32,651 bases of DNA. Origin: a virus. The notes under the pieces were generated by a model. That model was not told where the DNA came from. It saw nothing but the letters and a program-made list of their open reading frames with translations, and did not search any database. Each line of letters starts with the position of its first letter. The stretch's first letter is position 1. The DNA is taken from positions 1-32,651 of the IMG/VR virus record IMGVR_UViG_3300009034_000145; one strand, written 5' to 3'. The position numbers and the translations under genes are program-made. Below, one piece after another: positions 3,629 to 28,784 of this stretch.

Positions 3629-4403
3629 AACTAGGTCTATTATCAATTTTGTGAAGAACAAGTTTGATGATAATGAGATTGGTATATTTTGGAGTGGAGG
3701 GAAGGACTCTACTGCTATGTTACATTTGATTGGAGAGACATGTGGGGAGATACCATGGCAGGTAGTGTATGTAAATACTGGTTATCACTTTCGGGAAACA
3801 CATAACTTTATTAGTAAGCTAAGCGATACATGGCAATTTGATGTCTGTCATATCTTGGCTGAATCACCTCGTACACCTAATAATTCTACTGTGAAGGAAT
3901 GTTGTTATTCAAGAAAGACATATCCGATAAAAGCTACAATTGAGGAGTTTGAATTTAAAGGTGTATTTGTTGCTATACGTAGGGACGAGCATGGTGTAAG
4001 AAATAAGGAGAGATTTATTTCTCCAAGGGATCAAGGTCTTAAATGGAACATCAAGGAGCAAGACACTGAGCTGTCCGGATGGAATATCTACTATGCAGAT
4101 TATGGTGATCAATGTCATCATTTTAGGATACATCCATTGTTACATTGGAATGAAGTAGATGTATGGAATTACATTAGGGACTTTGAGATACCTGTGAATC
4201 AGTTGTATTTTTCGAAGAACGGTAAGAGATATAGGTCGTTAGGATGTAAGACTTGTACGGTTCCTATAGAGAGTAATGCAGTCACTATTGATGATATGAT
4301 TAAAGAGATTAAATCTGACCGTTGGGGTGAAAGAGACGGTAGGTGGAGTAAAAAAGATATGACAATTATTTATGAGCATATGAGAGCATTAGGATATTTC
4401 TGA
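3603..4403 (+). CDS. CysD-like PP-loop ATPase (ATP sulfurylase small-subunit family)
   Basis: A 266-residue protein of the adenosine-sulfate PP-loop family. The ATP loop is SGGKDS near residue 30. The stretches IRRDEHGVRNKER, HPLLHWNEVDVWNYI, LYFSKNGKRYRSLGC, ESNA.TID and ER.GR ending in GYF follow the order seen in CysD, the sulfate adenylyltransferase subunit that makes APS from ATP and sulfate. Unlike CysD, it has a Cys-Cys pair (KECCYSRK) and a CxxC (GCKTCT), the layout used for a 4Fe-4S cluster in APS reductases; the C-terminal ECGLH-type catalytic Cys of those reductases is missing. ATG 3603 has AGGTG at 3592-3596 and overlaps the previous gene. No CysN partner is in the window. Sulfate activation or another nucleotidyl transfer are the main options. 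Confidence 0.72.
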   Translation: MSLLRLIGKTRSIINFVKNKFDDNEIGIFWSGGKDSTAMLHLIGETCGEIPWQVVYVNTGYHFRETHNFISKLSDTWQFDVCHILAESPRTPNNSTVKECCYSRKTYPIKATIEEFEFKGVFVAIRRDEHGVRNKERFISPRDQGLKWNIKEQDTELSGWNIYYADYGDQCHHFRIHPLLHWNEVDVWNYIRDFEIPVNQLYFSKNGKRYRSLGCKTCTVPIESNAVTIDDMIKEIKSDRWGERDGRWSKKDMTIIYEHMRALGYF

Positions 4404-6521: not shown

Positions 6522-7052
6522 ATGACAGAAGTTAGAAGATCTGTACAAATAGCTGAGATTGGGATATTTGCGGCACTCTATGCAGTGTTGACTTGGTTCT
6601 TGGCTCCGATTAGTTATATGGCGATACAGTTTAGGATGTCGGAGGTATTGAAGTCAGTGGTAATTAAACGGAGGCATATAATATTGGCCTTCGTGTTTGG
6701 TGTTGCATTGAGTAATGCATTTAGTCCATATGCGGGTATTTGGGAGTTTATCTGGATGCCATTCATCAATCTGATTGGTGGCTTCGTATGTTGGGTAATT
6801 GGATCGAGATTTGCATACTATGTAAATATTAGTGAAGGACGAGCGTATAATATAACAGCGATATTTGCTTGTGCAGTGTACGGTGTAATCATTGCAGGTG
6901 GAGTAGCAATTATGTTGGACTTCGTATTGGGTATACCATTTATGGTATTGATTGGACCATTAGTGATCAGTGAAGTAGTGTTGTTAATAGCTTCGGCCTT
7001 GATTGTCTTACCCTTAGTAGATAAACTACCAACTTGGAGGGAGATGATTTAA
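6522..7052 (+). CDS. queT: QueT-family transporter (queuosine-precursor ECF S-component type)
   Basis: A 176-residue membrane protein with about five to six hydrophobic helices. The N-terminal IAEIGIFAALYAVLTWFLAP followed by QFRMSEVLK is characteristic of the QueT family, where A-I-Q-F-R-x-S-E is the best-conserved block; a buried GIWEF segment follows near residue 70. QueT proteins are predicted substrate-binding components of ECF transporters for queuosine or preQ precursors. It lies directly ahead of queC, supporting the assignment. The start ATG 6522 follows AGGTGGTGAC. No ECF ATPase or T-component is in the window, so host energising subunits would be needed. Its stop lies inside a hairpin described separately. 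Confidence 0.8.
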   Translation: MTEVRRSVQIAEIGIFAALYAVLTWFLAPISYMAIQFRMSEVLKSVVIKRRHIILAFVFGVALSNAFSPYAGIWEFIWMPFINLIGGFVCWVIGSRFAYYVNISEGRAYNITAIFACAVYGVIIAGGVAIMLDFVLGIPFMVLIGPLVISEVVLLIASALIVLPLVDKLPTWREMI

Positions 7053-7067
7053 CTCCCTCCCTTTTTT
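7036..7067 (+). terminator. Hairpin plus T6 at the queT/queC boundary
   Basis: GGAGGGAG at 7036-7043 pairs perfectly with CTCCCTCC at 7053-7060, with a nine-base loop containing the queT stop, and C-TTTTTT follows. This is a clear intrinsic-terminator shape inside a two-gene set that would otherwise be co-transcribed, so it may terminate partially or protect the 3' end of the queT message. Confidence 0.7.
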
Positions 7068-7084
7068 ATTATGGAGTGATGATG

Positions 7085-7813
7085 ATGAGTAATAATAGAA
7101 GAGTAGTAATATTATGGAGTGGTGGAATTGATTCTACTACCTTAGTATGGTGGGCAAAAAAGAAAGGAATGGATGTTCGTACTCTGACTATTTATTATGG
7201 TCAGAAACATACTAAGGAAACTTCCTTCGTAGCGAAGCTTACAGAGAAATTTAGGATTGATAATAAGACTGTGGATTTAGGAGCAATCCAGCCTCTTATT
7301 GATTATGGTGCACTAACTGGTACTGCTAATGTACCACAAGGTACGTATGATGAGAAGACCCAAAGAGTTACTATTGTTCCAAATAGGAATATGATATTAT
7401 TAGCCATTGCCGCTGGGTATGCTATAACATTGGGATCGTCGGTTATATTATATGCGGCTCACAGGAATGATCGTAGTATATATCCAGATTGTAGACCAGT
7501 GTTTGTTAATGCCATGAATGCTGCAATAGAAGCGGGGAATGTTTGGAGTCCCGTGGAGATATGGGCTCCTTTTATTGATTATTCGAAGACTGAGATTGTA
7601 ACGTTAGGTTTGAAATTAGATGTTCCATATGAGGATACTTGGAGTTGTTATGAAGGTGGAAGGAAGCCTTGTGGTAAATGTGGGACTTGTTTGGAGAGAA
7701 CGGAAGCCTTTATGAACAATGTGGCTAATGACCCAGCATTGAACCCCAAGGATTGGATTAAGTTTATGGGGTATTATAAGGATGCCAGAATTAGTGACGG
7801 TAACAAAACATAG
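7085..7813 (+). CDS. queC: QueC, 7-cyano-7-deazaguanine (preQ0) synthase
   Basis: A 242-residue PP-loop ATPase that converts 7-carboxy-7-deazaguanine, ammonia and ATP to preQ0. The ATP loop SGGIDS is at residues 12-17, VPNRNM at 98-103, YPDCRP at 133-138, and the zinc site is complete (C188, C196, C199, C202 in C-x7-C-G-x-C-x2-C). Length and motifs match functional QueC. ATG 7085 is chosen because GGAGTGAT (7073-7080) lies four bases upstream; two ATGs just before it (7079, 7082) overlap the ribosome binding site. In viruses, QueC feeds 7-deazaguanine modification of DNA. QueD, QueE, FolE and DpdA are not in this window, so precursors may be imported or made by genes outside it. Confidence 0.92.
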   Translation: MSNNRRVVILWSGGIDSTTLVWWAKKKGMDVRTLTIYYGQKHTKETSFVAKLTEKFRIDNKTVDLGAIQPLIDYGALTGTANVPQGTYDEKTQRVTIVPNRNMILLAIAAGYAITLGSSVILYAAHRNDRSIYPDCRPVFVNAMNAAIEAGNVWSPVEIWAPFIDYSKTEIVTLGLKLDVPYEDTWSCYEGGRKPCGKCGTCLERTEAFMNNVANDPALNPKDWIKFMGYYKDARISDGNKT

Positions 7814-8072
7814 TTTGATAAAATTGATCGAAGAGTATAATGATCACACATTAGGTAATGCTGTCACTACTAAGTCCTTCGCATGGTACTTAAAGAAGAA
7901 ACAGATAATCTTACCTTCACAGAAGTTAAGGTTTGTTCACGAATGTTTGAAGAAATTGGAGAAGTGGGGTATAATCACTCCTATTAATAGAAGACAGTAT
8001 GTATGGGGGATTAAACCAAAATGGAAACGACCGAAGAAAGATTTAATATTATCACTTCTGCGACAACAGTAG
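7782..8072 (+). CDS. Small winged-helix-like protein
   Basis: A 96-residue basic protein overlapping the end of queC and the start of the polymerase gene. The pattern of three helices and a hairpin (TTKSFAWYLKKK; LRFVHECLKKLEKWGIITPINRRQYVWGI) is that of a winged helix, usually DNA-binding. ATG 7782 is the longest start; GTG 7794 has AAGGATG about nine bases upstream and is an alternative. Placed directly before PolB, it may regulate or assist replication; this is inference from position. Confidence 0.55.
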   Translation: MPELVTVTKHSLIKLIEEYNDHTLGNAVTTKSFAWYLKKKQIILPSQKLRFVHECLKKLEKWGIITPINRRQYVWGIKPKWKRPKKDLILSLLRQQ

Positions 8073-10375
8073 ATAAGAAGACAACCTATGATTGGTTGTT
8101 CCTTAGGAATGAGAAGGGAAGAAAGGTTCTAAGGATTACTGGTAGGAAGTCGTATTTTTATGTGGAAGGTGATGGAGCATATAAGTCTTTATTTGGTCAG
8201 AGTTTGAAGAGATTGGTTTATAATAACCCAGGTGGGGTCTTAACGAATAGAAAGGATTATAATAGACATTATGAGGCTAATATTGAACATCATATGAGAA
8301 TAAGGATAGACGAGGATTTAAAGTATGGTGTGAAGTTAATTGGTGATAGGATTGAATCTTGTGAGCCAATAGATGTATTACCAACTATGTTTTTCATAGA
8401 CCTGGAGGTAGAATCTCCCCCAGAGATTTTTCCGCTACCAAGGAAGGCAGATTACCCAATAGTGAATATTGGAACTATTCATGGCAATAAGGCTGTGATG
8501 TATGCGTTAGAAGGTAGTGAAGAAGGTAGGCATCAAGGGGTTAGAGGGAAGAATGTAGAGGTTATAGTTTTTAATGATGAAAGGAATATGTTGGAGTATT
8601 TCTTGGAATATTTTATAGAATGTGATCCAGATGAGATTACAGGCTGGCATGCTGAAGGGTTTGATGTTTTATATTTATTGAGGAGAATGCAGAAGTTAGG
8701 AGTACCTTATAGGAGAATATCTCCTATTGGGAAAGTTAGGTTTAAATTGATTAAAGATCAACTGAGGGTCAATATTCTCGGTAGGGTTATATTGGATACT
8801 CTCTCAGCGTTTCAGAAGATACATAGTCCATTTCATGGACGACTACCGAGTTATAGGTTATCGTATGTACATGCTTATTTATTCAAACATGATGAGCGAG
8901 AGGATTTTGGTGATAGGATTAAATATTTGAGAGATAATGAGAAGTATGAACAAGTTGCAGATTATTGTACGCAGGATGTTGTTGATACGTTAGAGATATT
9001 TGAAGAAGTAGACGTGATGAGGTATTTTGAGAATATTAGGAAGATTGTAGGCTGTAGGGTGGAGGATATACTTTCTAATAAGAGAGTAGTTGATGTATTA
9101 TCTTTAAGACAGGCTAAGGAAGATAATGTGGTATTACCGAGTGTGAGTTATACCACTGCTGTTGAGAAAGTCTTGGGAGGTAAGGTATTAGAACCTACAG
9201 TAGGATTACACAGATATGTTGCTGTTTATGACCTGAAGGCGTTGTATCCAGCTATTATTATGGCTAAGAATATTTCTCCAGAGATGATATTACCAGATAG
9301 GACTTTTAGGAAAGATGAAGTTGGGTTTATTCCTAAGATTATGAAGAAGCTTATTGTTGTAAGGCAGGCTGTTCAGACAGAAATGAAAAAGCATAAACCT
9401 AAGAGTGATGTCTGGAATAAGTTGTATGCAGAACAGTTTGCGTTAAAGTTCTTAGTGAATTCAATTTATGGTGTGTTAGGTCATGAGTCATACAGATTGT
9501 ATGATCCTAGAGTGGCTAATGCAATTACTCTAGAGGGTAGGACTTTAGTTTTGAAGTTGAGAGATTTATGTGAGGAAAAAGGATTTGTAGTATTGTATGG
9601 AGATACAGATTCTATATTCGTTGCTGTGAATACAGCAGAAGAAGCAGTTTATTTGGAAGTAGAGATTAATAAGTTCCTAGCGGTTTATTCTAAGGAGTTA
9701 GGAGCTGAATATCCGATGATTGTAGAGTTTGAGAAGTATTACAAGACCTTAGTTTTTAAGAAAAAAGTGAAGAGAACGAAAAGGCGGGCTAAACGAGCTA
9801 TTGCTGGAGCTAAGAAGATTTATAGTGGATATATGTTGTTACGAAGTGGTAAGTCAGTGGATCCTGAAAGAGCATTGGATGTTGTTGGAGCTAAGAAGTC
9901 AAGTACGGCATTATTGACTCAGAAGGTATTAGAAGGTGTACAGAGGGCAATATTAATTGAAGAGGATGTAAAAAAGGCTTTGGATATTGTAAAGGAAGCT
10001 TGGGATAATTTTGAAGACTATCCATTAGAGGAGATTGGGATACCTAGAAGTATAAGGGCTACGAGAGAGGATTATAAGGCTCCTTCATTGCATTTTAGAA
10101 GTTCTGAATATATGATGGTCAATTATGGGTGGTTGTTTAGACAGGATGAGAGTCCTAAGTTATTGTATGTCAAGAAGGTTCCTGAGGGTATGCCACATAC
10201 TAAGGCTATTACATTTCAAAGTAGTCATAAGATACCCGAGGGCTTTGAAGTTGATTGGGCTGTTATGAGAGAGAAAGTTATTAGGTCTACTGTTGAGACT
10301 ATTATTGAAGCCACTGGGTTTGATTGGACATCAATCTTCCACGGTGGTAGGCAAGCAACATTAATGGAATATTGA
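8021..10375 (+). CDS. polB: Family B DNA polymerase with 3'-5' exonuclease
   Basis: A 784-residue replicative polymerase. Exonuclease motifs are all present: Exo I F-I-D-L-E near residue 127, Exo II GWHAEGFD near 210, Exo III YCTQD near 315. Polymerase motifs: A YDLKALYPAII (catalytic Asp near 404), B KFLVNSIYG near 480, C YGDTDS near 527 with two catalytic Asp, and KKIYSGY of the thumb near 605. Length fits archaeal and archaeal-virus PolB. ATG 8021 has GGGGGAT about eight bases upstream and overlaps the preceding gene by 52 bases. It is probably the viral replicase. A 7-deazaguanine-modified template, if present, would have to be accepted by this enzyme. Confidence 0.95.
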   Translation: METTEERFNIITSATTVDKKTTYDWLFLRNEKGRKVLRITGRKSYFYVEGDGAYKSLFGQSLKRLVYNNPGGVLTNRKDYNRHYEANIEHHMRIRIDEDLKYGVKLIGDRIESCEPIDVLPTMFFIDLEVESPPEIFPLPRKADYPIVNIGTIHGNKAVMYALEGSEEGRHQGVRGKNVEVIVFNDERNMLEYFLEYFIECDPDEITGWHAEGFDVLYLLRRMQKLGVPYRRISPIGKVRFKLIKDQLRVNILGRVILDTLSAFQKIHSPFHGRLPSYRLSYVHAYLFKHDEREDFGDRIKYLRDNEKYEQVADYCTQDVVDTLEIFEEVDVMRYFENIRKIVGCRVEDILSNKRVVDVLSLRQAKEDNVVLPSVSYTTAVEKVLGGKVLEPTVGLHRYVAVYDLKALYPAIIMAKNISPEMILPDRTFRKDEVGFIPKIMKKLIVVRQAVQTEMKKHKPKSDVWNKLYAEQFALKFLVNSIYGVLGHESYRLYDPRVANAITLEGRTLVLKLRDLCEEKGFVVLYGDTDSIFVAVNTAEEAVYLEVEINKFLAVYSKELGAEYPMIVEFEKYYKTLVFKKKVKRTKRRAKRAIAGAKKIYSGYMLLRSGKSVDPERALDVVGAKKSSTALLTQKVLEGVQRAILIEEDVKKALDIVKEAWDNFEDYPLEEIGIPRSIRATREDYKAPSLHFRSSEYMMVNYGWLFRQDESPKLLYVKKVPEGMPHTKAITFQSSHKIPEGFEVDWAVMREKVIRSTVETIIEATGFDWTSIFHGGRQATLMEY

Positions 10376-15650: not shown

Positions 15651-18600
15651 CTATATCTCTGGGGGTTCGTTAGATATTGCTCTAAACGTAGCCTGCCAGT
15701 TGATTATCCCAGCATGCCGTTCTCTCTCAAAGACTCTCTCTAAAACACCACGCATAACATCTCTATTGGTACGCAAATAGAGTATCTTTTTTCTTTCCTG
15801 CCAATACCATAACAACATCATGTTAGTATCCGCGTTACTTCCAAATAATCTACCTTGTATCATGAATGACCTAGATTTAGTCCCATAAGGTTCAATTCTT
15901 TCTACACCATCCAGTGTTGCCGTCCTAACACTAAACTTTGTCACGACACTATCTGCTCTCTCCATACCTATATCCTTACTATGAGCAAACTCAGGTTGAT
16001 CAGTTAACGTATACAAATCATCTTCCTGTACAAAGTCAGTTCTGAATGAGAATGCACCACCACCACTATGATATGGAACAATAAGATGATTACCACCTGG
16101 TTTTAGCACAGGTTGTTCAGAAAATGATCCATATAACTCTGAAGTATCCAACCAACATTCAATATAGAAATCATGTAACGCTGCATATGAACCAGATGTC
16201 ACTGTTTCTTCATTACGAACTCGTAAATATAATTTACGAGTACCAGCCCAGTTATCCAAACCATAGTAGTACTTTGTAATGTTATCTTCGGTATTAGCCC
16301 ATGAGATCACATTAGTAAAATTAGCAGTCGTACCGTCTGACGAAAGTGCCAAAGTCATATCAGCATCAACTTGTAACACTTCTGACTTAGATACAATTCG
16401 TCCACCTATCAGTGGGAATCCGAGATCAAACTCGTAAATAATCTTACTGTTATTATACGCAAGCCTCATATAGGGATCACTAGCGAAACCATAAAATGCT
16501 ATCTTCCCGGCCCCATCCGGTGAGACACCCGGACTGTAAAAGATGGCATCTGACATTCCCTCATACGTAAAGAAATTCGCTTTATATGTATATTTAGCCC
16601 TACCATTCGGATAGAATGTATATTTCCCACCAGTCAGCATCCTAATATTATCCATAACCAATGTCTTGTTCGTCGGCGTGCTTTTCAGCTTTAACTCTGG
16701 ATGTTCTGCATATGTCGTGTAGAACATCAAGTCACCTGTAGTTGCAGCCCATACAGTTCCATTATACCAAATACGAGAACCATTACCATACTGATCAGTA
16801 GACATAAACCTTATTGATCTATAATTAACATTATCTAAAGCACCCGTTCGGCTCAATGTAATCGCATACGTAGCAGTAGTATCCATATCAACATTCTCTA
16901 AATTTACATGCAACCAATAATTATTACTACCCACCGCACGGTTCCAATTAGCATTACCAAATCTCCTAAAAGCCAACGGATTACCGGTTGGCAACCCACC
17001 AGATGTAGCAAACAACCTAATATCTACACTATCTGTTGGAGTACCATAATTCTGTCCCGGATTAATTATGATACTTCTCAAATCGGGCTTATGCAATATA
17101 AACGTTTGACCTATTTGCTCCCCATTCGTTGTTGTTCTCCCAAATGCACCATTAGTATCATGTTGCCATTGAGCTTGATCAACATGCTCAGAACCTATTC
17201 CCACAACTTTACACGTTGGTGCTATACAAGCCGCACGTGAACCTTTAAAGTATAATCCATCCAAGTAGATTATAGTCGTATTTGCATCTGTAGAGAGCCA
17301 CTCAAATCTAATATGATTTACCTCAGCCCAGTCAGGTGATCCTCCACTAGTCCAACCAGTTGAACCAGTACCTACCGGTACAATCACCTTATTCCATTTA
17401 TTAGCTACTATCCCAGTTATTGTACGCTCTCTGTAATTTGCACTACCAAGTGAAGTCAACCTAACTTTGAAATCCTCAGAGGAATTTTGATACACCCAAA
17501 ATATGAGACTACTATGAGAACTAAGATCCATCTCAAGATTACCATAAACATCGTCTTGTATATCGTAGCGACCGTACTCGACAAGCGACTGTAACGAAAC
17601 CGTTCGAGTGATTTTGATGCTGTAATCTCCGACAACAACTTGCTCTCGAGATAACCCAGTACTACAGTTAGCATTACTTACCCATAATTTCTTCATATAA
17701 TCAAGTGCACTATCTTGCACATAATTCTCAGTCCACTCATCTCTACCAGTAGGAATATCACCAGTCTTATCAGTTAATATTAAGTTCTCATTGTCTTTGA
17801 ATGTCGGAATATACTCAATTTCCACCCAATCAATAGTGTATATCCGACCTGCTCCAGGAGTCCAGGTCCTAAATCTAATATCTCCGTCTTGAAATTCATC
17901 ATCAACAGCACTAAGTACCTCTACACCATCCTGATACACCTTAATACTATTTCCCCTTACATCAATCACCCATTCATAATAAGTACCCACTACTACATTC
18001 ACAGATGTATTAGAGTCCAAAACAGTTTCGGACCCACCAACCACTCTCGATAATCTAATCTCAGTAGGCGAACCTGTTGTTCTAATACCAAACTCATAAT
18101 GGTTATTATGATCCACACGTCTAAAATAAGTATACGTATAAGTATCTGCATGATCCAGTTTACATCTTTGACGTATTCTAAAATCAACAGGGAAACTTCC
18201 AATAAGAGGAGTTGCCTCTTCATTATTAGCATCTAGAACTAGTGTTCCAGAGCTTACAGCAGGCGCACCATTCGTTGATGCCCAATTGAAAGCACCGCTA
18301 CCATCACTTTCATAATTGAAACGATCTGCAAATATTGTAAGTGGTATAACCTGAAAATCATCCCAATAGACATAACCCGCTGCATGATAGAACAACGGCT
18401 TAAATACAATCCTACCGATCTCTTTAGTTGTTGTAGTGGTATGATAGGTCACAAACCGTTTCCATTCAGTTGTTACCGGAGTCGTAGTCAGTGATATAGC
18501 ATTTGGTGAAGCACTAGCAGTATTGGTGCCATCTGTGTAGTGAAAATCTGCGTTCAGTCTGACATAACCAGTACCGTCTGGAGAACTAGCATTGACTAAT

Positions 18601-18905
18601 TTGTACCAACCAACGATCATCCACTTAACACATCGTCTATACATATCACCAATAGGTACCCTACATTCAAGTAAACTAGACGCATCACCAATACCTCCAT
18701 ACATCTCACAAGCATATTTACCCGAATGCACATGCTTACGCGTAATCCTTACATTACCACCGACTGATAAAGTAGATAGCCATCTACCAGCATTATGTAA
18801 TGAACTAGCATAATCATCTGGATCTAATGATCCAGTCTCAAACCCACCATTAGGTAATAAATTTGGCATAACAGTCTTATACACACCCTGTACATAACTA
18901 CTCAT
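15651..18905 (-). CDS. Large multidomain receptor-binding/tail fibre protein
   Basis: About 1,084 residues, chosen from the third of three consecutive ATGs because GAGGG lies six bases upstream of it; the longest form starts at 18911. Domains in order: N-terminal carbohydrate-binding-like jelly roll (LLPNGGFE, to about 195), LamG-like domain (about 196-365), a galactose-binding-like domain (about 385-550), a QTF-type domain (about 600-745), further beta-rich segments and a C-terminal block with WYWQERKKILYLRT. Almost all beta, Thr/Ser/Asn-rich, low Cys. The last gene of the virion operon, it overlaps the gene before it by eight bases. Most likely it sits at the tail tip and binds host surface sugars. 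Confidence 0.75.
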   Translation of the reverse strand: MSSYVQGVYKTVMPNLLPNGGFETGSLDPDDYASSLHNAGRWLSTLSVGGNVRITRKHVHSGKYACEMYGGIGDASSLLECRVPIGDMYRRCVKWMIVGWYKLVNASSPDGTGYVRLNADFHYTDGTNTASASPNAISLTTTPVTTEWKRFVTYHTTTTTKEIGRIVFKPLFYHAAGYVYWDDFQVIPLTIFADRFNYESDGSGAFNWASTNGAPAVSSGTLVLDANNEEATPLIGSFPVDFRIRQRCKLDHADTYTYTYFRRVDHNNHYEFGIRTTGSPTEIRLSRVVGGSETVLDSNTSVNVVVGTYYEWVIDVRGNSIKVYQDGVEVLSAVDDEFQDGDIRFRTWTPGAGRIYTIDWVEIEYIPTFKDNENLILTDKTGDIPTGRDEWTENYVQDSALDYMKKLWVSNANCSTGLSREQVVVGDYSIKITRTVSLQSLVEYGRYDIQDDVYGNLEMDLSSHSSLIFWVYQNSSEDFKVRLTSLGSANYRERTITGIVANKWNKVIVPVGTGSTGWTSGGSPDWAEVNHIRFEWLSTDANTTIIYLDGLYFKGSRAACIAPTCKVVGIGSEHVDQAQWQHDTNGAFGRTTTNGEQIGQTFILHKPDLRSIIINPGQNYGTPTDSVDIRLFATSGGLPTGNPLAFRRFGNANWNRAVGSNNYWLHVNLENVDMDTTATYAITLSRTGALDNVNYRSIRFMSTDQYGNGSRIWYNGTVWAATTGDLMFYTTYAEHPELKLKSTPTNKTLVMDNIRMLTGGKYTFYPNGRAKYTYKANFFTYEGMSDAIFYSPGVSPDGAGKIAFYGFASDPYMRLAYNNSKIIYEFDLGFPLIGGRIVSKSEVLQVDADMTLALSSDGTTANFTNVISWANTEDNITKYYYGLDNWAGTRKLYLRVRNEETVTSGSYAALHDFYIECWLDTSELYGSFSEQPVLKPGGNHLIVPYHSGGGAFSFRTDFVQEDDLYTLTDQPEFAHSKDIGMERADSVVTKFSVRTATLDGVERIEPYGTKSRSFMIQGRLFGSNADTNMMLLWYWQERKKILYLRTNRDVMRGVLERVFERERHAGIINWQATFRAISNEPPEI

Positions 18906-21699
18906 CATCATCCCTCGTACTGGTAACTTCTCTTAACCTTGCCCTAAATTTGACATCCTCAATTCTGCCACTTTGATGTTGGGGTTGGAATAAATCAACC
19001 ACACATTTTATCACATGCCTACCAGTCATTACATACACTGGCTTCTTCGAACTAGCCCAATCACCGTATTTATCCTTATCCTTTAAAAAGGTCTGTGCAG
19101 CCAATACACCATCAACACTGATTTGTCTGGCCTCAAAACCCCTAATAACTATATAATCATCCCTATCCAAAATAGTCTGCCTACTAGCCAACATACGTCT
19201 ATTAATATCAAACTTCGTATCAACACACATTACTTCCGGAACGTCTGGATGCTCTCCTAGATACACAGCTTTTTGTTGTTGTTTGGAAATATCTATATGT
19301 TCCAATTGAGCTGACCAACCATCAGTTTGTGGGACAAGATCATTACTCGTGCCTATTAACATAGGAACACTATTTAGCCCCAAAGAAGGACATCTAATCA
19401 ATGCATCAAACTTTAACCCAGTATATCTAACCCAACCTGCATGTACCTCACTCTCTGTATCTGCTGCTGAATTCAATTCAACCTTAATATACACAACATT
19501 CGAATCAATATCATCAATCTCAAGAACTTTACCATTGGCCTCACTTCTAAAGTCCTGATTACTTCCAGACCCATTTACACTTAATAATAGCGTCCACGTA
19601 TAATTATCAACACTATAATACACCTTAAACCTACCAGATGCAACTTCATTACTTGATATATATCCACCAACATTCAAGTCTATCTTACCAAACTTCCACC
19701 CAGCAGGTAATCTAAACTCACTCACATAACTTGCAGTCGAACCAATTGTAGTATTATCAGACCATCCAACAGTATACCAAACATCCTTATTAGTCCCAAC
19801 CCATGGTTTCCTCGGACTATACCCATAATAATACGGATACCCACTAGTATCTATAATCGACCACCATAATGGATCACAATCACCAATGGCTTCAGTATAC
19901 AACCTACTATCATATAAATACCTACCATGACCGGTTGGCTCAATAGTAATTGTAGTTCCAGGCACTACCCTACTAGCTTCTAATCTCTTCCATGAAGTCT
20001 GATTCTCCAGCACTACATCAGACTCTCTATCATAATGAAGTTTAAAGTACATATCGTAAGTTGTATTATACCACGTACCGTTATCATATCTCCATAATAT
20101 CCCATCATCATACGGGCCAGGATTTTGAGTCCTTACTTTCCTATAATGAGAATCATTCTCAGTAGTATTACTTAATACAATTGCATACATAGTCCCAGGA
20201 GTCAACTCTACCCCCAAATTCACATATATCGCGGCATCAGGTTGTGCTTCAAGACGATCCCATATTTCATACGGAATTATAGTTCTCGCTAATTTCCAAT
20301 TTGTATACGGTTGATTAGACCCATCCACTGGAGTAACATCAATCCTTATATCAGTCGTTGGAGTACCAAAATCAGCTCCGGGCATAATAGTCAAACCTCT
20401 CAACCGTGAACTTTGTGCAGTAAATGTTTGTCCAAGTCTTTGATAATTACCAGTAGCCGTAGTACCAAATTGTGTTTCAATATTCTCCGAAATATTAGCC
20501 TGATCTACAATCTCAACAATAGGATTACCAGTAACATCAACTTTAGGAGCCGAAGCTAATAAATTCGTTCCAGTTCTAGTAATTGTAGCAGTATCATATT
20601 GAAATGCAGGAGTATAAGGCTCCACAGCAACCCAATTCCAATACATAGTATTAGAAGTAACCTGCACACGACCCACCCTAACAGAACCTCTATAAGTCTT
20701 CGTAATCTTCGTACTTGTAGCTATAAGTTCACTATTGAAATAAAATGAAGAAGTATTCCCATACACATGTATCTCAAATGGATATCCAACACCATATGTT
20801 ATGGCAGTTGGCAATGCAGTCCAACTAATCACATCACCATCCTGATCAACCAACTTATATTGGTCTGTCGAGGAATTAATATGCCACCTATAATATATAG
20901 TCCCTGCACTATTACACCTAAATGTAAATGTAGCCTCATTATCACCAGTAACAAACTGCATTGTTCCGCTCAGTATGTAATCTCTCCACTCAAACGACTC
21001 TGGATATAATGTTGGGTCTAATCTAGCTTCAGCAGTTCCACCCAACATTGTCATTGTTCCGTTACCTATTGCTGCAACTCTCACAATATCATCTACTTCA
21101 TCCCATTGAGATGGAGGATAACTACCACCTGATTTTTCGTTCATAAAATTATCAAAAAACATCTGACGTGGACTCAAAACCAAATCATCAATCCAAGCTT
21201 CGCCAATCCTCGTTGACGTACTTGTATGAGTAACATAAACCCTAATATAATTTATTACCTTAGCATTTGTAGAATAATCAGCCTCATCATACGTCCAACC
21301 TTGAGCCTTTTCATTTCCAGGAGCAAAATCTAATATACACTGATTACCTGAATTAGTCCCATCAATGTAATAAAATATACAATAAATCTGTACAGTCCCA
21401 CTAGAACCACGTTGTATGGATTTTGCCCAAGCACTCAATCTCCATTTATCCATTCTTGCATATTTCAGTGTTGGATATATATCCTGATGTATGGTTGTAC
21501 TGACCTCAGAAGGATAAACATTCACATAAAGACTTTTACTCCCAATACGTGATTGATCACCAACAATCTCAGCCTTACCTGAGTCTTGTACCCAAGGACA
21601 ATTATCCTCATTTAACCCATAATCCTCAAACCCAGGATCCTTAATCAAATTAGGCATAGCCATTATACTAGGCTGAATTGTATGTGTTTGGCTAACCAA
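18898..21699 (-). CDS. Large multidomain tail/adhesin protein
   Basis: A 933-residue beta-rich protein. It opens with LIKDPGFEDYG, a carbohydrate-binding-like domain (to about 185), then a LamG-like domain (about 186-370), a QTF domain shared with the next gene (about 410-555), an F5/8 type C-like discoidin fold near 640-780, and a C-terminal domain with KDKYGDWASSKKPVYVMTG. TTG 21699 overlaps the stop of the radical SAM gene, with AAGGAGG about 12 bases upstream; ATG 21663 is an alternative. It and the next protein are mosaic paralogs built from the same modules. Probable role is adhesion to the host envelope as part of the tail tip. Confidence 0.72.
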   Translation of the reverse strand: MVSQTHTIQPSIMAMPNLIKDPGFEDYGLNEDNCPWVQDSGKAEIVGDQSRIGSKSLYVNVYPSEVSTTIHQDIYPTLKYARMDKWRLSAWAKSIQRGSSGTVQIYCIFYYIDGTNSGNQCILDFAPGNEKAQGWTYDEADYSTNAKVINYIRVYVTHTSTSTRIGEAWIDDLVLSPRQMFFDNFMNEKSGGSYPPSQWDEVDDIVRVAAIGNGTMTMLGGTAEARLDPTLYPESFEWRDYILSGTMQFVTGDNEATFTFRCNSAGTIYYRWHINSSTDQYKLVDQDGDVISWTALPTAITYGVGYPFEIHVYGNTSSFYFNSELIATSTKITKTYRGSVRVGRVQVTSNTMYWNWVAVEPYTPAFQYDTATITRTGTNLLASAPKVDVTGNPIVEIVDQANISENIETQFGTTATGNYQRLGQTFTAQSSRLRGLTIMPGADFGTPTTDIRIDVTPVDGSNQPYTNWKLARTIIPYEIWDRLEAQPDAAIYVNLGVELTPGTMYAIVLSNTTENDSHYRKVRTQNPGPYDDGILWRYDNGTWYNTTYDMYFKLHYDRESDVVLENQTSWKRLEASRVVPGTTITIEPTGHGRYLYDSRLYTEAIGDCDPLWWSIIDTSGYPYYYGYSPRKPWVGTNKDVWYTVGWSDNTTIGSTASYVSEFRLPAGWKFGKIDLNVGGYISSNEVASGRFKVYYSVDNYTWTLLLSVNGSGSNQDFRSEANGKVLEIDDIDSNVVYIKVELNSAADTESEVHAGWVRYTGLKFDALIRCPSLGLNSVPMLIGTSNDLVPQTDGWSAQLEHIDISKQQQKAVYLGEHPDVPEVMCVDTKFDINRRMLASRQTILDRDDYIVIRGFEARQISVDGVLAAQTFLKDKDKYGDWASSKKPVYVMTGRHVIKCVVDLFQPQHQSGRIEDVKFRARLREVTSTRDDDE

Positions 21700-22729
21700 T
21701 CCTCATAACCTCCTTGGAGATTTGATATCGTATCTGTTCAAACGTACAGTAGTCTTCTGGAATTTCAGTAAGGGATTTCCCACCAGACCGTAAGTGACAA
21801 ACCTTATAACATCCCCCACAAGGATACACCAAACAGTTATAACACTGTTCATGATCTAGACCTCTCCAAAACTCAACTTTGTTTTTGTCTACTCCAGTCT
21901 CAACATGACCTATCCTAAACTCTGGTTGTATCAGACGATGACAAGGATAAATAAACCCATCTAAACCTACGGCAGTCGAACCTTGACAGGCTCCACAGGT
22001 CCAGCGAGAACGAGTATGCCTTGGCATCTTTTTCTGCAACCGAGTTATGGTCTTATCAACAAAAACTATCGATATATCATTTTCTTTTGCCCAGTACGCG
22101 GCCTTACGATATTGTCTTTCCAATTCCTTAAAATCATTAATTGTGTAAGTCCTATAGCTATCAACAACTTTATTAAACGCAATACTCTCAAACCCAATCT
22201 TCACAGCCTCCTTAACACTATCAACCAAATATGGGATAGCTTCAGGGCTAACCGCCATTGCACAGCGTAAATTCAAGAGATGATAAACACGCATGAGGTT
22301 GATAGTCCTCGCAACTAACGGATAACTTTCCCTTCCATTCCACATTGGTCGCATGTAATTTTGGACGAACGGAACCCCATCAAACGAGACTAGGGCGCCA
22401 AAATCATTTTCTGCAAAATACTTGACCCGCTCGACATTCCAAGGAGTCCCGTTCGTTGTAACACCAGCACGTACGATCCTTCCCCTTTCACGTTCTTCAA
22501 GTACCCTCTTAAATGTATGTTTGACGAGATGCCAGGAGAGCATTGGTTCGGTACCAAACAAAGATACACTACATTTACCGGAGGCTTGGCCGAAGAACCA
22601 ATCGAGCGTGGAATCTAGTAGCCCCACTGACATCTCATCTTTACCTTTATCCTGTAGGAAACAATACCTACATTTCATATTACACTTATCATTAATATGT
22701 AACACTACGCTGGAAAATTCTATCGACAA
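21692..22729 (-). CDS. Radical SAM/SPASM peptide-maturase-like enzyme
   Basis: A 345-residue enzyme. The radical SAM cluster motif is C16-x3-C20-x2-C23 (CNMKCRYCF), with the SAM-binding G-T-E-P at 59-62 and T-T-N-G-T at 91-95. The C-terminal SPASM domain has C245, C248, C263 (ending D-G-F-I-Y-P-C-H), then C296-x2-C299-x4-C304-x2-C307-x3-C311 and C328, enough for two auxiliary 4Fe-4S clusters. SPASM enzymes modify ribosomal peptides or protein side chains (thioether or C-C links, formylglycine); it is not QueE, which has no SPASM domain and a short, different core. TTG 22729 follows GGGGTGG by five bases. It lies inside the virion operon, overlapping genes on both sides, so its target is probably a virion protein. 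Confidence 0.9.
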   Translation of the reverse strand: MSIEFSSVVLHINDKCNMKCRYCFLQDKGKDEMSVGLLDSTLDWFFGQASGKCSVSLFGTEPMLSWHLVKHTFKRVLEERERGRIVRAGVTTNGTPWNVERVKYFAENDFGALVSFDGVPFVQNYMRPMWNGRESYPLVARTINLMRVYHLLNLRCAMAVSPEAIPYLVDSVKEAVKIGFESIAFNKVVDSYRTYTINDFKELERQYRKAAYWAKENDISIVFVDKTITRLQKKMPRHTRSRWTCGACQGSTAVGLDGFIYPCHRLIQPEFRIGHVETGVDKNKVEFWRGLDHEQCYNCLVYPCGGCYKVCHLRSGGKSLTEIPEDYCTFEQIRYQISKEVMRIG

Positions 22730-23051
22730 GTAACCACCCCGCAGCTCCTAGTATGCCTCCAAATCCACCTAATGATAGATAAGCCCACCAATACGTTGTA
22801 AGTGCATACGTATGACCCAAGAGAATAAAATGCCAATAAAAATCACCACACACCCCAATGAACAGTAATATTATCGGATACCAAAGACTTATATCAGCCT
22901 CACGTACCATCATACATACAAACATAATCATTAGAGGCTCAACAATAATATTCAACTGTGACATCCCAATCACATAATTGTTATGAAAGGCCCACATAGC
23001 CATCTCTATCATACCAAGTGTCTCTAACATAAACCTAACTCTAATATTCAT
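22692..23051 (-). CDS. Small membrane protein between hub and radical SAM genes
   Basis: A 119-residue protein with three to four hydrophobic segments, rich in Met, Trp and Ile (LNIIVEPLMIMFVCMM; LWYPIILLFIGVCGDFYWHF; LGGFGGILGAAGWLLV). The start ATG at 23051 is set by GAGGGTGGTGAT, which is itself the end of the hub coding region; the frame is open to 23072. It overlaps the hub gene by 11 bases and the radical SAM gene by 38 bases, so the three are translationally coupled. Holin-like, or a membrane anchor for the modification step; no family recognised. Confidence 0.6.
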   Translation of the reverse strand: MNIRVRFMLETLGMIEMAMWAFHNNYVIGMSQLNIIVEPLMIMFVCMMVREADISLWYPIILLFIGVCGDFYWHFILLGHTYALTTYWWAYLSLGGFGGILGAAGWLLVDRIFQRSVTY

Positions 23052-24810
23052 GCACATCACCACCCTCTTCACATGTCTGACAATTCAACGTCTCGCAACT
23101 CACCTGATTAGCTGTCTCGCAATACTTCTCACATCCAGTCTGACATGCACATATATCACAATCAGTTTGACCAGCTGCAACTTCACAACTCACCTGACAT
23201 GTAGAGGTCTCACAAGCCGTTGGACAATCAACCAATAACTTAAACTCCGACCTAATCTCCTCAATATTTCCTCCCTTAGCCCATAATAATCTCAGATCAT
23301 ACCCTGCACTTGCAACTACATCACTTAAATCTGGCTCTTCCTTACCCAGAGACACAATAGTCCTGAATGACCTAAAATCATGCTTAACCTGCTTTACTCT
23401 CATCCTAAATAACTGAAAGCCATTCCAACACTTTATCACATCTCCAGGATTGATATTGAAATTCAACCTATTCACAGTAACCGTTACATACTTATGTTCA
23501 TCCTTATAATGATCCAACAATGCATTAGCTAGATTAGTTGCCTTTATAGAAGCCTGATTTGTCAAATCCATAATTGGTAAATTTCTCAATCCATGTCTTG
23601 CAATACTTGTACAATCCTTAACATCCGCAGCCACTCTTCCAGTCACAACAGCTATTCCATCAAACCATACATGTGATCCAGAGTTTTGATTATCCGTTGG
23701 CTTAACCGAAATTATTATATATTTCCAATCGCTCCAACTACAAGTCCCGTATGTACTGAAACTAGATAGGGGTAGATCAATAAGATGCCATGTATTGGAA
23801 GCCCCATTAAGGATATAATATTTATACTTGTAATCTGTATCCCATGTCTTAACAAAAAAGACGTCTATTGAATTTAATTCTGAACCTCCACCGTTATCAG
23901 GTAGGAAATCAGATCTAATCCAAAATCTTATCCTTTCGTGATTTGACAAATCCCTCGTTATAGGTTGTGATGCACTGCCTAGTACTCCTCCAGCTCGTTC
24001 ACCCTCGACTATAGGTCCATTGGTACATTGGACAGAATGTATCCCAACAATACTCGGATCATTTACCTGCTGTATACTTGTTGTTTGATCCCATATAGTC
24101 CACCAGTCTGTAATATCATTCTCCGTCCAAGCATCCCCATCTGAAGGTATAGGTTGGTTGATTGACCCATAAATCAATATTCTATTATAAATCTCCCTTG
24201 CACTTCTCTTATATGAATAATCAGTTAAATCATTCTTCTCCAACACGACCTTCGATGGTCTACTATATCGCGGGAAAAAATTCAGATCCTTATTCTCATC
24301 AACGTAGAAATCATACCCAAATTGTCCACTACTATCCTTTGCTAGTCTCGCAGCCATCTGTACTGCCTCGAATAACGTTTTGCCTCTGAGGAACCATCGT
24401 GATGCTGTTTCCGCTGAATTTATTACATTAGCATATGTCAAATTATCCTGATAGACATCAAGTAGCCTTTTAACAATCTCATGTGCTTTAAGTGTATCTA
24501 TCGAGATATAATCAATCTGCTTCCCCTGTAACAAGTACCCATAATCTCGTCCAGTAAATCTTATTTCATTAGGAGTAATTATCTTTTCCTCTATAACCCC
24601 TGCAGTGATCAAGGTCTCTATATTACCATTTACCTCATACAATTTAACATCAGTCATATTGAATATCTCTGCATACTCTCTCGTTCTTGGCAATGAGAAA
24701 GTAAAACTCCCCGATGCACTATTAATAGATCTTGTTACATCAAAATCCTCTACATAAGCAATTCTAGGACCCTTACCTCTCCATTCTAAATCTACCCTAT
24801 AATATGTCAT
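23041..24810 (-). CDS. Baseplate hub-like tail protein with inserted adhesin domain and Cys-rich tail
   Basis: A 589-residue protein directly after the tape measure. Residues 1-215 and about 400-500 resemble phage hub proteins of the gp27/XkdQ type (DVTRSINSASGSFTFSLP early, FNINPGDVIKCW and FRTIVSLGKEEPDL late). Residues about 221-390 are an inserted galactose-binding-like domain, also present in the last gene of the operon. The final 61 residues are Cys-rich with 12 Cys between 529 and 580. ATG 24810 overlaps the tape-measure stop as ATGA. Expected at the tail tip, forming the ring the tube ends on. The Cys-rich tail is odd for a tail hub and is treated separately. Confidence 0.72.
   Translation of the reverse strand: MTYYRVDLEWRGKGPRIAYVEDFDVTRSINSASGSFTFSLPRTREYAEIFNMTDVKLYEVNGNIETLITAGVIEEKIITPNEIRFTGRDYGYLLQGKQIDYISIDTLKAHEIVKRLLDVYQDNLTYANVINSAETASRWFLRGKTLFEAVQMAARLAKDSSGQFGYDFYVDENKDLNFFPRYSRPSKVVLEKNDLTDYSYKRSAREIYNRILIYGSINQPIPSDGDAWTENDITDWWTIWDQTTSIQQVNDPSIVGIHSVQCTNGPIVEGERAGGVLGSASQPITRDLSNHERIRFWIRSDFLPDNGGGSELNSIDVFFVKTWDTDYKYKYYILNGASNTWHLIDLPLSSFSTYGTCSWSDWKYIIISVKPTDNQNSGSHVWFDGIAVVTGRVAADVKDCTSIARHGLRNLPIMDLTNQASIKATNLANALLDHYKDEHKYVTVTVNRLNFNINPGDVIKCWNGFQLFRMRVKQVKHDFRSFRTIVSLGKEEPDLSDVVASAGYDLRLLWAKGGNIEEIRSEFKLLVDCPTACETSTCQVSCEVAAGQTDCDICACQTGCEKYCETANQVSCETLNCQTCEEGGDVHEY
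23044..23226 (-). other. Cys-rich, SCIFF-like C-terminal segment of the hub protein
   Basis: Codes for the last 61 residues of the hub: Cys at 529, 533, 538, 542, 551, 554, 556, 560, 564, 572, 577 and 580. The pattern repeats as A-C-E-T-S-T-C-Q-V-S-C-E, C-Q-T-G-C-E-K-Y-C-E-T-A and C-E-T-L-N-C-Q-T-C-E. It resembles SCIFF/ranthipeptide precursors (CxxCQxxCxxxC with Thr, Ser, Gln and Asn between), which are matured by SPASM radical SAM enzymes to thioethers. The rest of the protein has only three other Cys, so the enrichment is local. A metal-binding or disulfide knot is the alternative. Confidence 0.6.
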
Positions 24811-27158
24811 CTAAATGGCAACCCCTTAGTCCTTAGTTCCTCCGCAATGGCTGCAGCTATGTCACTCCCAGTTTTTCTTGGATCAGATACACTACCCTGT
24901 ACGGTAACATTAATTACCATTGAGGTACCCCTCGGCCATTCTGGGGAACCTCCTTCTTGTTGACCTGCTATCCATTCTGCTCCTGGTCCACCAACAGTCG
25001 TCAATCTACCTCCTGTTGCAACATCCACCTCTTCCATTTGTTTGGCCCAATCAACATCCCTACCTTGTAGTGCGGCCACCCAATCCATGGCAATTCTACC
25101 TGCTACTCCACCAACTAATGCTCCTGCTCCAGCTGCTCCAATAGCTAATGCTGCAGATGCTGCAGTACCCATTCCAGCTAATCCACCAACAGCTACTCCT
25201 AACTCAGCTTCTAATGCACCAGCAGTAACAACACCTGCTCCTCCTAAACTTCCACCCAATGCACCAAATGCAGCAGTTGCAGCTCCCATTAACGGAGCAG
25301 CTGCTCCAATAGTAGCCATAGCTGCACCAATAGCCTGTAATGCCATACCTAGTCCCAACAACAATGGAGTTAACTTAACTAATTCTGCTAACAATCTCCC
25401 GAATGCCTCTGCACCACCCATAGCAGTAACCATTTCCTGGAATGCTTCAGCTAATGATATAACAGCTGGTATGACACTTTCAATAAATGATGTAGCAAGA
25501 TCCTTTAGGAATTTCTGAAATTCAGGATCCTCTAATAATTCCTTTAAGTTCCCTATACCATCCTCAATAGCAGGCAACAACGCTGATCCAATCTCAACAG
25601 CTACCATATCAATTAAATTCATTAAATCCGCAATTCTATCATTAAACGTTCTCATCTGCATATTCGCAACATCTTCAGCAGTTCCACCAACATCTTCAAG
25701 TGAACCCCTGATATTCTCAAACTCTTTATCCCATGCTATTAGTATATTCAATACCCATTCAGACTGATTTCCAAACAGATCCTGTATAAGCAATTGCTTC
25801 TCCAGATCAGTACTATATCCCTGAACCCTCTCTCGGAGTTGATCTAAGATATAACTAAAATCTGCAAAGTTCCCAGAAGCATCATAGATTGATATACCCA
25901 TATCCCAACTTTTATCAATCAGTCTTGAAAAGAACTCATCTAACCTCCTTCCAGCAGTCGAAACATTCATTCCCTGTCTCTGTAACATAACCATCATAGC
26001 TATAACTTCTTCAGCTGTCAAACCAAACTTCATAGCTTTTTGTGAGGCATAAGCAAATCCTGTGCTGAGCTCACTCATCGATGCACCTGTTAGATAATTA
26101 GCCTTAGTCAATAGATCCGCAATATATGCAGCATCTGTCATCTCTAAATTAAACTGATGCATTGCATTCAATAAAATATTCGAAGCTTCTGCAGCCTCAA
26201 TAGTATTAGCCTTTGCAAACATCATCACTATATTTAGATACTCCAAACTCTCTGCAGTATCAATCCCTTGCATCTCTAATTGCAACGCAGCTTTAGCAGC
26301 ATCTCCTAACCTAATATTCCACTCATCAGCCAATTGTAAGATATTCTCACTTACCTGTCCAAATGCCTGATCAAGATTATCAGCATACCTACCACTCAAA
26401 TCCATCGCAATGTTAAGATTCATCATGGCTTGTTGGAAGTCAGCCGCTCTATCCACAATCTGCTTTATTACACCAATAATTATCCCAGAAATAGCAAGTA
26501 ACCTAAAACCCATACGCTCCATAGTCCTACCCAGATATGCAATCCTAAACCCAGCTTTCTCAACAGCTCTACCATAATCTTGTATTTTAGTCCGACCTTT
26601 TCGTAGTGCCTCCATATTTTCATCGCGTATTTTCTTTAACCTATATTCCTCTTTAATCTCTTCTTTTATTGACTCTGTCAACAATTGAGTTTGAACTCTC
26701 ATCTGCTCTATAAATTCTCCCCTAGCAGCCCTACCCAATTCTCTATATGCCCAAGCTAACTCATACGATGCTTTTGTTCCTGCCACCATTGTTGTCGATG
26801 CAGTACCCACATACTTATGAACATCTTCCTTTATAGAAGCAAGCGAATTAGCTATTTGTTCTCGCATCATCATAATTGCTTGACCTTGAGACTCCAATTG
26901 GGTCTTTACAGCCTGTGGAATTTGTACTGAGATAGTTGTACCTACTGCATCATAAAGTTTTATCATGCCTTCGACTTCGGTTTTTACCGTCTTAACAAAT
27001 TCTTTAAAGGAATCTCCCATAGCTTTCGTAGTATTCTTTACGCGAGTAGCAAGTTTTTTCATTTGCTTAATCATAGGGTCAACTACTGCACTTACATGCA
27101 ACCCTATTTTGGCTGTACTTTCCCACTCGCCTAATTCTTTTGGTGATAAACCTGGCAT
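24807..27158 (-). CDS. Tape measure protein
   Basis: A 783-residue protein. Coiled-coil rich N-terminus (1-190), then a TP901-1-type tape measure core (about 225-430; FQQAMMNLNIAMDLSG, NILLNAMHQFNL, GASMSELSTGFAYASQ, AGRRLDEFFSRLID). The Ala/Gly-rich hydrophobic region near 605-705 is as in tape measures that cross membranes. It follows the tail chaperone genes, precedes the hub, and starts with ATG immediately after the previous stop. By the usual rule of about 0.15 nm per residue it would give a tail of roughly 115 nm; that is an estimate only. Ends with a Val-rich segment (GTSMVINVTVQGSVSDPRK) like many siphovirus tape measures. Confidence 0.88.
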   Translation of the reverse strand: MPGLSPKELGEWESTAKIGLHVSAVVDPMIKQMKKLATRVKNTTKAMGDSFKEFVKTVKTEVEGMIKLYDAVGTTISVQIPQAVKTQLESQGQAIMMMREQIANSLASIKEDVHKYVGTASTTMVAGTKASYELAWAYRELGRAARGEFIEQMRVQTQLLTESIKEEIKEEYRLKKIRDENMEALRKGRTKIQDYGRAVEKAGFRIAYLGRTMERMGFRLLAISGIIIGVIKQIVDRAADFQQAMMNLNIAMDLSGRYADNLDQAFGQVSENILQLADEWNIRLGDAAKAALQLEMQGIDTAESLEYLNIVMMFAKANTIEAAEASNILLNAMHQFNLEMTDAAYIADLLTKANYLTGASMSELSTGFAYASQKAMKFGLTAEEVIAMMVMLQRQGMNVSTAGRRLDEFFSRLIDKSWDMGISIYDASGNFADFSYILDQLRERVQGYSTDLEKQLLIQDLFGNQSEWVLNILIAWDKEFENIRGSLEDVGGTAEDVANMQMRTFNDRIADLMNLIDMVAVEIGSALLPAIEDGIGNLKELLEDPEFQKFLKDLATSFIESVIPAVISLAEAFQEMVTAMGGAEAFGRLLAELVKLTPLLLGLGMALQAIGAAMATIGAAAPLMGAATAAFGALGGSLGGAGVVTAGALEAELGVAVGGLAGMGTAASAALAIGAAGAGALVGGVAGRIAMDWVAALQGRDVDWAKQMEEVDVATGGRLTTVGGPGAEWIAGQQEGGSPEWPRGTSMVINVTVQGSVSDPRKTGSDIAAAIAEELRTKGLPFR

Positions 27159-27806: not shown

Positions 27807-28784
27807 CTATTCCGGAATATCTGTCTCGTCGTTCCAAATATCTATCTCTATGATATCTGTCCCTGTAGGCCCAAGTACTGCTCTCCATTCAACTGGTTGG
27901 ACGATTCGATCTCTAGTTCTTAACGGTACGCCTGTCGCTGCGAATATAACTTTTGGAATGTTTATATCCATTTTATATGGAAAACCCACACCTGCATCAA
28001 CAGTTGATTCAAATGCCACTTGCATCTGATATGCCTCTAACGGCACAGTTGGTGTCAATGCATCAGTTGTTCCAAGAACTCTCTGATATTGAGTTGAATC
28101 ATCGAATGAAAAGTCCGCTGTACCACTTACAGTTCTATTCTGAGGATATAGTCCCTTCAAAAACCGACTACCTAGTCTTGTAACATCTGGAACTAGGTTA
28201 TTCTCTATAGTCAATCTAAATGCCTCTAAAGTTGTAATAGCACCAGCCTCAATTTCTGTTGTCCCAGCTTGATGGAACACAAATGGAGGTTGATCTCCAT
28301 ATGCTGGTGAAGTCCCAGTTGTAGTAGTTACAATTTCCTCTTTGTTACAAATCAGATCTGCAGTACCCTTTACGATATCATTCATCGCGGCTTCAATCGT
28401 CAGTCTATTCACACCAATTCCTATAAGTTTCCTCCACTGTATACTGTCATCACAAATCTCTGCCTTGAGACTTGGAACTGTATCCGCAGCACGTATCTCA
28501 TGCCTATACGCAGTCGTTGTACCTTCTATATTAGGTGTACTCTCTCCCAATACTGCCTTAAGCAATAATGGTATATCTAACGGATCCACTGGGAATGCAA
28601 TAGACCCACCTAGATCAAACCTTCCACCTACATGCATATGTACATCACGTGCTCTAGTTCCCTGTATATATATAGGATTCTGATTTGGCCGAATATCCTC
28701 ACTCTCTACGTTGATGAATTTTACCGGTGCAGTCCATGCTTCCGCAAAGGCTGCTTCTTCGTCAAATCCAATATATCTTGCCAT
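27807..28784 (-). CDS. Major tail tube protein
   Basis: A 325-residue beta-rich protein, ATG 28784 after GAGGTGAAATAA, following the terminator gene stop (TAAATG). It begins MARYIGFDEEAAFAEAW, a common start for tube proteins of the gpV-like fold that contact ring neighbours, then has two similar halves (FDLGGSIAFPVDPLDIPLLL near 55 and RTVSGTADFSFDDSTQYQRV near 215). Two tube folds in one chain would form a trimer-of-pseudohexamer ring, as in some siphoviruses; that is inference. Placed between tail terminator and chaperones, as expected. Confidence 0.75.
   Translation of the reverse strand: MARYIGFDEEAAFAEAWTAPVKFINVESEDIRPNQNPIYIQGTRARDVHMHVGGRFDLGGSIAFPVDPLDIPLLLKAVLGESTPNIEGTTTAYRHEIRAADTVPSLKAEICDDSIQWRKLIGIGVNRLTIEAAMNDIVKGTADLICNKEEIVTTTTGTSPAYGDQPPFVFHQAGTTEIEAGAITTLEAFRLTIENNLVPDVTRLGSRFLKGLYPQNRTVSGTADFSFDDSTQYQRVLGTTDALTPTVPLEAYQMQVAFESTVDAGVGFPYKMDINIPKVIFAATGVPLRTRDRIVQPVEWRAVLGPTGTDIIEIDIWNDETDIPE

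Follow-up and report, generated by a model that had tools for sequence, protein, structure and literature searches.

A cysteine-rich tail on a predicted viral tail hub and a neighbouring radical SAM/SPASM enzyme: a candidate case of virion-protein modification

What might a radical SAM/SPASM enzyme be doing in the tail operon of a virus, close to a structural protein that ends in a dense array of cysteines? The question is raised by the window, i.e. the whole stretch of DNA that was analysed, an IMG/VR virus fragment of ∼32.7 kb (32,651 nucleotides) with its tail operon on the minus strand. To our knowledge, the substrates of radical SAM enzymes that cross-link cysteines are peptides and a few enzymes, and we know of no virus particle in which the chemistry of covalent, SPASM-made Cys knots or rods is found. 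We consider it likely that the hub protein of this virus is built with a C-terminal Cys/Glu/Gln array and is modified by the SPASM enzyme of the same operon, most plausibly through ranthipeptide-type thioethers. The pairing of such enzymes with Cys arrays across viruses is well supported by the sequence comparisons below; the action of the enzyme on the hub tail, the type of bond and the benefit to the virus are what we infer.

The tail operon and the hub protein

The operon runs from the tape measure gene through the hub, a 126-aa hydrophobic ORF and the radical SAM/SPASM enzyme to two large ORFs (Table 1), with overlaps of 4 to 38 nt between neighbouring genes. The tape measure gene (24807–27158) overlaps the start of the hub gene, the 126-aa ORF overlaps the hub end by 32 nt (23041–23072) and the enzyme start by 38 nt (22692–22729), and the enzyme gene overlaps the following gene (18898–21699) by 8 nt. 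The first-pass annotation had placed the SPASM gene in the operon of the hub with overlapping frames; this holds for the gene chain but not for the hub and enzyme as a pair, because the 126-aa ORF separates them. That ORF has no match in Pfam, NCBIfam or PHROG. The 933-aa ORF has no family match in Pfam or PHROG, and a large ORF is found in the same place in the relative G063 described below; the two large ORFs after the enzyme are probably fibre genes.

Table 1. Features of the tail operon in the window
Feature	Position	Strand	Basis
Tail protein homologue, upstream in the tail operon	27807..28784	(-)	phrog_290 2.8e-30; homologue in G063
Tape measure protein, immediately upstream of the hub gene	24807..27158	(-)	PF10145 5.5e-31, TIGR01760, phrog_1533
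Tail hub, 589 aa	23041..24810	(-)	phrog_400, AF2 and Foldseek
Hub Cys array, proposed substrate segment	23071..23226	(-)	residues 529-580, 12 Cys
Small hydrophobic ORF, 126 aa, membrane-protein-like	22692..23072	(-)	two strong hydropathy peaks
Radical SAM/SPASM enzyme of 345 aa, putative hub-tail maturase	21692..22729	(-)	PF04055, NF047865
Large ORF after the enzyme, 933 aa, putative tail/fibre protein	18898..21699	(-)	position only
Large ORF, 1086 aa, putative fibre protein	15651..18911	(-)	LamG/ConA-like PF13385 3e-5, below cut-off

In a PHROG search, residues 19–236 of the hub matched phrog_400 (tail) with an E value of 3e-14. An AF2 model built with five sequences was poor (pLDDT 43) and was replaced by one built with 40 sequences, in which the core (residues 1–217 and 391–493) has a pLDDT of ∼90 and is interrupted by a low-confidence, β-rich inserted domain (residues ∼218–390); a helical linker and the Cys-rich tail follow, and residues 518–589 have no confident structure. 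According to Foldseek, the model is most similar to the tail of Haloferax tailed virus 1 (HFTV1; 9h4p, E = 8.6e-17), with further matches to Mu gp44 (1wru), T4 gp27 (1k28), MuSo2, contractile injection systems and VgrG. By this model the product of 23041–24810 has a tail-hub fold of the gp27/Mu gp44 type, and it lies directly after the tape measure; Mu gp44, T4 gp27, the HFTV1 hub and VgrG resemble it in both fold and position.

The 12 cysteines in 52 residues reported for the hub end in the first-pass annotation were confirmed, and the array stops nine residues before the C-terminus. Given 1.2% Cys in the ORFs of the window, the probability of at least 12 Cys in 52 residues is ∼1.5e-12 per placement; none of the other ORFs of the window holds a comparable Cys array or a short Cys-rich precursor. 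Glu or Gln directly follows nine of the 12 cysteines, and these two residues make up 27% of the remainder of the tail. With spacings of 1–8, the array is less regular than those of its relatives. It forms the C-terminal part of a structural protein of 589 aa, in contrast to ranthipeptide precursors, which are short and consist of leader and core.

Elsewhere in the window, a QueC gene (7-cyano-7-deazaguanine synthase; 6522–7813, +; over cut-off) adjoins the gene for a membrane protein that resembles QueT on visual inspection, and a deazaguanine modification of the viral DNA is possible for this pair. An ORF at 94–1101 (+) with a GDSGS motif has, by eye only, the look of a trypsin-like serine protease. 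At ∼15500 the gene blocks converge and the GC skew flips sharply, with replication genes on the plus strand and tail genes on the minus strand.

The radical SAM/SPASM enzyme

The enzyme has the CX3CX2C motif (CNMKCRYC, residues 16–23) and all seven SPASM cysteines (245, 263, 296, 299, 304, 307 and 328), as expected of a radical SAM/SPASM protein. Its top NCBIfam model is PapB (NF047865; 178 bits, cut-off of 340 not reached), which outscores the nif11, SCIFF and QhpD-type maturase models; the SCIFF maturase model TIGR03974 gives 100 bits (cut-off of 425 not reached) and the QhpD model TIGR03906 gives 98 bits (cut-off 453). Sulfatase maturases, CXXX-repeat, cyclophane and other models also match below their cut-offs. 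By strict cut-offs the enzyme thus belongs to no named maturase family, and it resembles the thioether-forming group most closely; because it scores under every such cut-off, the bond type cannot be read from the sequence. A reading as an anaerobic sulfatase maturase was rejected, since the [CS]xPxR sulfatase-type motif is absent from all of the ORFs of the window.

Using a profile of a four-sequence alignment, the top solved structure was the SCIFF maturase CteB (5wgg), with an E value of 7e-61. The alignment starts at residue 98 of CteB, past its RRE domain, and the window enzyme begins at the SAM barrel and therefore lacks an RRE. No leader, separate RRE or RRE-like neighbour of the enzyme was recognised in the window. 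The SCIFF precursors among the cellular matches share the CxxxC [QE] style, with cores (GGCGECQTSCQSACKTSCTVGNQ) of the CQxxCQ type, and together with the PapB and CteB matches they support the likeness to ranthipeptide/SCIFF systems that had been proposed for this locus.

Enzymes and cysteine arrays across viruses

Judging from gene content, the IMG/VR record 3300009034_000043 (G063; loci L247, L254 and L415) is a true relative of the window virus, sharing PolB, an MCM-like ATPase, an ERCC4-type nuclease, a PAPS-reductase-like gene, the tape measure, the tail protein, the hub and the enzyme (37% identical). In place of one hub gene it has two, which correspond to the halves of the window hub; both products carry a CxxxC tail homologous to the window tail, and the gene order is tape measure, the two Cys-tailed halves, enzyme. 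No Cys arrays beyond these two hub tails were found in the 58.5-kb G063 contig.

The hub family was scanned with a hub alignment as the query, blind to the Cys tail, which gave 68 viral loci with hub homologues. Just one of these, G063 (L415), has a hub with a Cys tail, and it alone has an enzyme of this type beside the hub; the remaining hub ORFs have at most three Cys per 50 aa. As many of the 68 loci are short, a missing enzyme is weaker evidence than a missing tail. A distant, weakly matching radical SAM gene lies on the other strand at L443, and at L423 the contig ends with a 62-aa ORF that is rich in Cys and probably spurious. In relatives found via PolB, the hubs likewise lack Cys tails and an enzyme of this type is absent. 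Single-sequence scans of viral and genome contigs with the hub and the enzyme gave no relatives, tblastn of the hub against cultured phages gave no match, and the Cys tail alone as a query gave chance matches only.

The scan from the enzyme side used four enzyme sequences, was blind to neighbouring Cys arrays and gave 78 viral loci. An array neighbour, defined as a protein with 10 or more Cys per 50 residues that is encoded no more than 5 kb away, is present at 46 of the 78 loci and in 32 of 61 clusters (60% identity), compared with one of 79 control viral PolB loci, where it is a spurious 62-aa ORF. The clusters differ from the control with a Fisher p of 1.4e-13, a value that is indicative because virus types were not matched in the PolB control. 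As three of the four queries came from array loci, a few of the top matches are not independent. The pairing of hub tail and enzyme that the first-pass annotation had put forward is thus supported from both families. It had also named relatives that carry the enzyme without a Cys-rich virion protein as evidence against the idea: an array is lacking within 5 kb at 32 of the 78 loci, some of which are short fragments (L274 and L283), but at none of the eight rows in the enzyme clade of the window.

Among 90 enzymes placed in a tree, that of the window groups with the G063 enzyme (99/84), next with three further rows (100/95) and then within the eight-row set (98/86), all rows of which have Cys-array neighbours. 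The array-less loci sit elsewhere in the tree, and the SCIFF maturases fall outside the viral groups. The eight-row clade includes two Bathyarchaeota genome contigs (L335 and L372), possibly proviruses, with Cys-array ORFs directly upstream of the enzymes; at L335 these ORFs follow a tail-fibre-like gene. These rows hint at archaeal hosts for the window virus, which is probably a tailed virus of archaea.

Different arrays (CxC, as in CTCTCTC, CNYxCTCxCNY and similar) accompany radical SAM/SPASM genes at L262, L265, L269–L272, L275–L278, L280, L287 and L299–L302, and the enzymes of these loci largely form their own clades. At L238:7131–12980, four consecutive radical SAM genes surround the gene for a 199-aa protein whose C[QE]xx tail is short.

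Where the array carriers have recognisable domains, they are mostly virion proteins, with several of the domain matches below curated cut-offs: the hub halves (L247), P2 gpI/TIGR02242-type tail proteins (L249, L253 and L244), a PHROG 52 tail protein (L314), a decoration protein resembling Hoc (L241) and, at L239, a virion structural match. Domains could not be recognised in many other carriers. A DNA search for five consecutive C[QE]xx units serves as an illustration only and was kept out of the statistics because the scan itself selects for C[QE]. It gave ∼16 contigs with clear array ORFs, 14 of which have a PapB-profile match; the two array contigs without one (G054 and G062) end inside the array gene. 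Many other matches were dismissed as simple nucleotide repeats with no plausible ORF and no enzyme, and two contigs (L128 and L169), whose CExN-type repeat ORFs are of doubtful coding status, have no enzyme.

The CxxxC steps (n = 260) of arrays from the enzyme scan, which were not selected for C[QE], have Glu directly after Cys in 49% of cases and Gln in 30%. In a homologous pair whose carriers are 65% identical, all 52 of 52 cysteines are kept and 42 of 42 Glu/Gln residues stay Glu or Gln, while positions +2/+3 are kept at 45%. A closer pair has a dN of 0.046 and a dS of ∼2 (near saturation), and its arrays differ in length by whole four-residue units. As the Cys and the adjacent Glu/Gln are kept and their neighbours drift, selection acts on these residues; such purifying selection is seen in same-style arrays of other viruses, not in the window's own. 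The viral array types CxC, CxxC and C[ST]GxC follow no Glu/Gln rule.

Arrays are also found in cultured phages. Erwinia phage phiEaH2 (NC_019929; L484:6081–6871 and 8040–10281) has two radical SAM genes that are immediately preceded by two ORFs with CxxxC arrays, next to a virion structural gene; by simple ORF calling the array ORFs are 127 and 155 aa long, they are annotated as much shorter hypotheticals, and their style differs (CxxxC with Ser/Thr/Gly). In Campylobacter phage CP220 (NC_027997; L483:16848–17216), a 123-aa hypothetical protein whose CxxC array has 17 Cys in 50 aa is encoded ∼7 kb from a radical SAM gene.

Proposed modification, alternatives and meaning

Several known systems come close. 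PapA/PapB (freyrasin), the closest by NCBIfam model, likewise pairs a SPASM enzyme with a multi-Cys substrate that has acidic residues near its cysteines. PapA, however, is a short precursor whose motifs are Cys-X3-Asp/Glu (PMC9413430); here the proposed substrate is the end of a 589-aa hub, with a CxxxC array in which Glu/Gln directly follows Cys. SCIFF CteA/CteB resembles the window in the structure match and the CQxxCQ core style, but CteB has an N-terminal RRE and the window enzyme does not. QhpD makes Cys-Asp and Cys-Glu thioethers with a SPASM enzyme in a protein subunit, the quinohemoprotein amine dehydrogenase γ subunit, rather than in a secreted peptide (PMC8326336); its substrate is a metabolic enzyme, whereas the substrate proposed here is a virion protein. 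The other hub-homologue loci that were checked have neither a Cys-rich hub tail nor a maturase beside the hub. The first-pass annotation knew of no tail hub that acts as a RiPP-type substrate, and our search of the open literature (subscription papers and preprints lay outside it) agrees, giving no description of virion proteins as SPASM/RiPP-type substrates. The kind of enzyme is thus known, and the virion substrate class and the viral breadth appear to be new.

Under the proposed mechanism, the hub would be synthesised with its C-terminal array unstructured; the enzyme, expressed alongside, would recognise the hub or the array without an RRE, and the array would be cross-linked before or during tail assembly. 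Glu and Gln both have a Cγ next to a carbonyl. The acceptor carbons of ranthipeptides lie beside an acid, amide or hydroxyl group (PMC8326336), and PapB joins Cys to Asp/Glu at variable distance, accepting Cys-Xn-Asp with n of 0–6 (PMC9413430). As the Cγ of Glu/Gln fits these acceptors, intramolecular thioethers from the Cys sulphur to a side-chain carbon beside a carbonyl (Glu/Gln Cγ) would be the simplest arrangement. The floppy tail could then become a compact, redox-stable knot at the distal tail tip. Candidate benefits are stability, host entry, a membrane-active tip and protection under reducing conditions, in which disulphides fail; thioethers would have the advantage over disulphides in anoxic, reducing habitats.

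The Cys tail might instead be held by disulphides or by metal or Fe–S, with the radical SAM gene being an auxiliary gene of anaerobic viruses that has nothing to do with the Cys tail and sits in the tail operon by chance. Cys arrays could chelate metal, and viruses of methanogens and methanotrophs have, like the window virus and G063, cysH together with Cys-rich tail proteins, there tail spikes; the study attributes these to disulphides or membrane disruption and notes radical SAM genes separately, in the section consulted without a link to the tail cysteines (PMC9723712). We nevertheless regard this reading as unlikely, since the co-occurrence of enzyme and array is far above the control and exclusive within the hub family, the enzyme adjoins arrays in unrelated tail genes, and neither disulphides nor metal sites need a strict Glu/Gln after Cys. 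The PAPS-reductase/CysD-like gene at 3579–4403 (+), also found in G063, might supply cysteine for the hub tail, as viral cysH is tied to Cys-rich tail proteins in that study (PMC9723712).

That the enzyme modifies the arrays by other chemistry (epimerisation, C–C or C–N links, conversion of Cys to formylglycine, or decarboxylation) is quite unlikely in our view. SPASM chemistry is varied, as the sub-cut-off matches to sulfatase maturase, CXXX-repeat and cyclophane models illustrate, and the array types without a Glu/Gln rule would be consistent with it; the nearest families by score and structure (PapB, SCIFF/CteB and QhpD) nevertheless form Cys thioethers, and the missing [CS]xPxR motif speaks against a formylglycine-type product. 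A substrate elsewhere, be it a host protein, a small peptide or another virion protein, would make the hub tail incidental. As the record is a ∼32.7-kb fragment, such a substrate could lie outside it, and viral radical SAM loci without arrays do exist; against this, the hub tails are again the sole arrays in the longer G063 contig and the window itself offers neither a second array nor a short Cys-rich precursor, and we consider this reading very improbable.

Thioether cross-linking of the hub tail by its operon neighbour may also be one instance of something wider. A general and repeatedly acquired virion maturation in tailed viruses of anaerobic hosts, archaeal ones included, is an idea that in our judgement could go either way: Cys arrays of several spacings on tail-tip, baseplate or decoration proteins (hub halves, gpI-type and Hoc-like) would be cross-linked by SPASM enzymes into covalent knots or rods. 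Because cultured phiEaH2 has an enzyme adjacent to arrays, the idea can be tested on real virions. The comparisons suggest that many viruses with enzyme and Cys-array pairs chemically modify parts of their own particles. If this is true, virion structural proteins would be a new class of substrate and radical-made thioethers would join the known means of covalent virion reinforcement; long, highly cross-linked natural substrates would become available for peptide engineering, and a function would be at hand for many radical SAM genes that have been recorded from viruses of anoxic environments.
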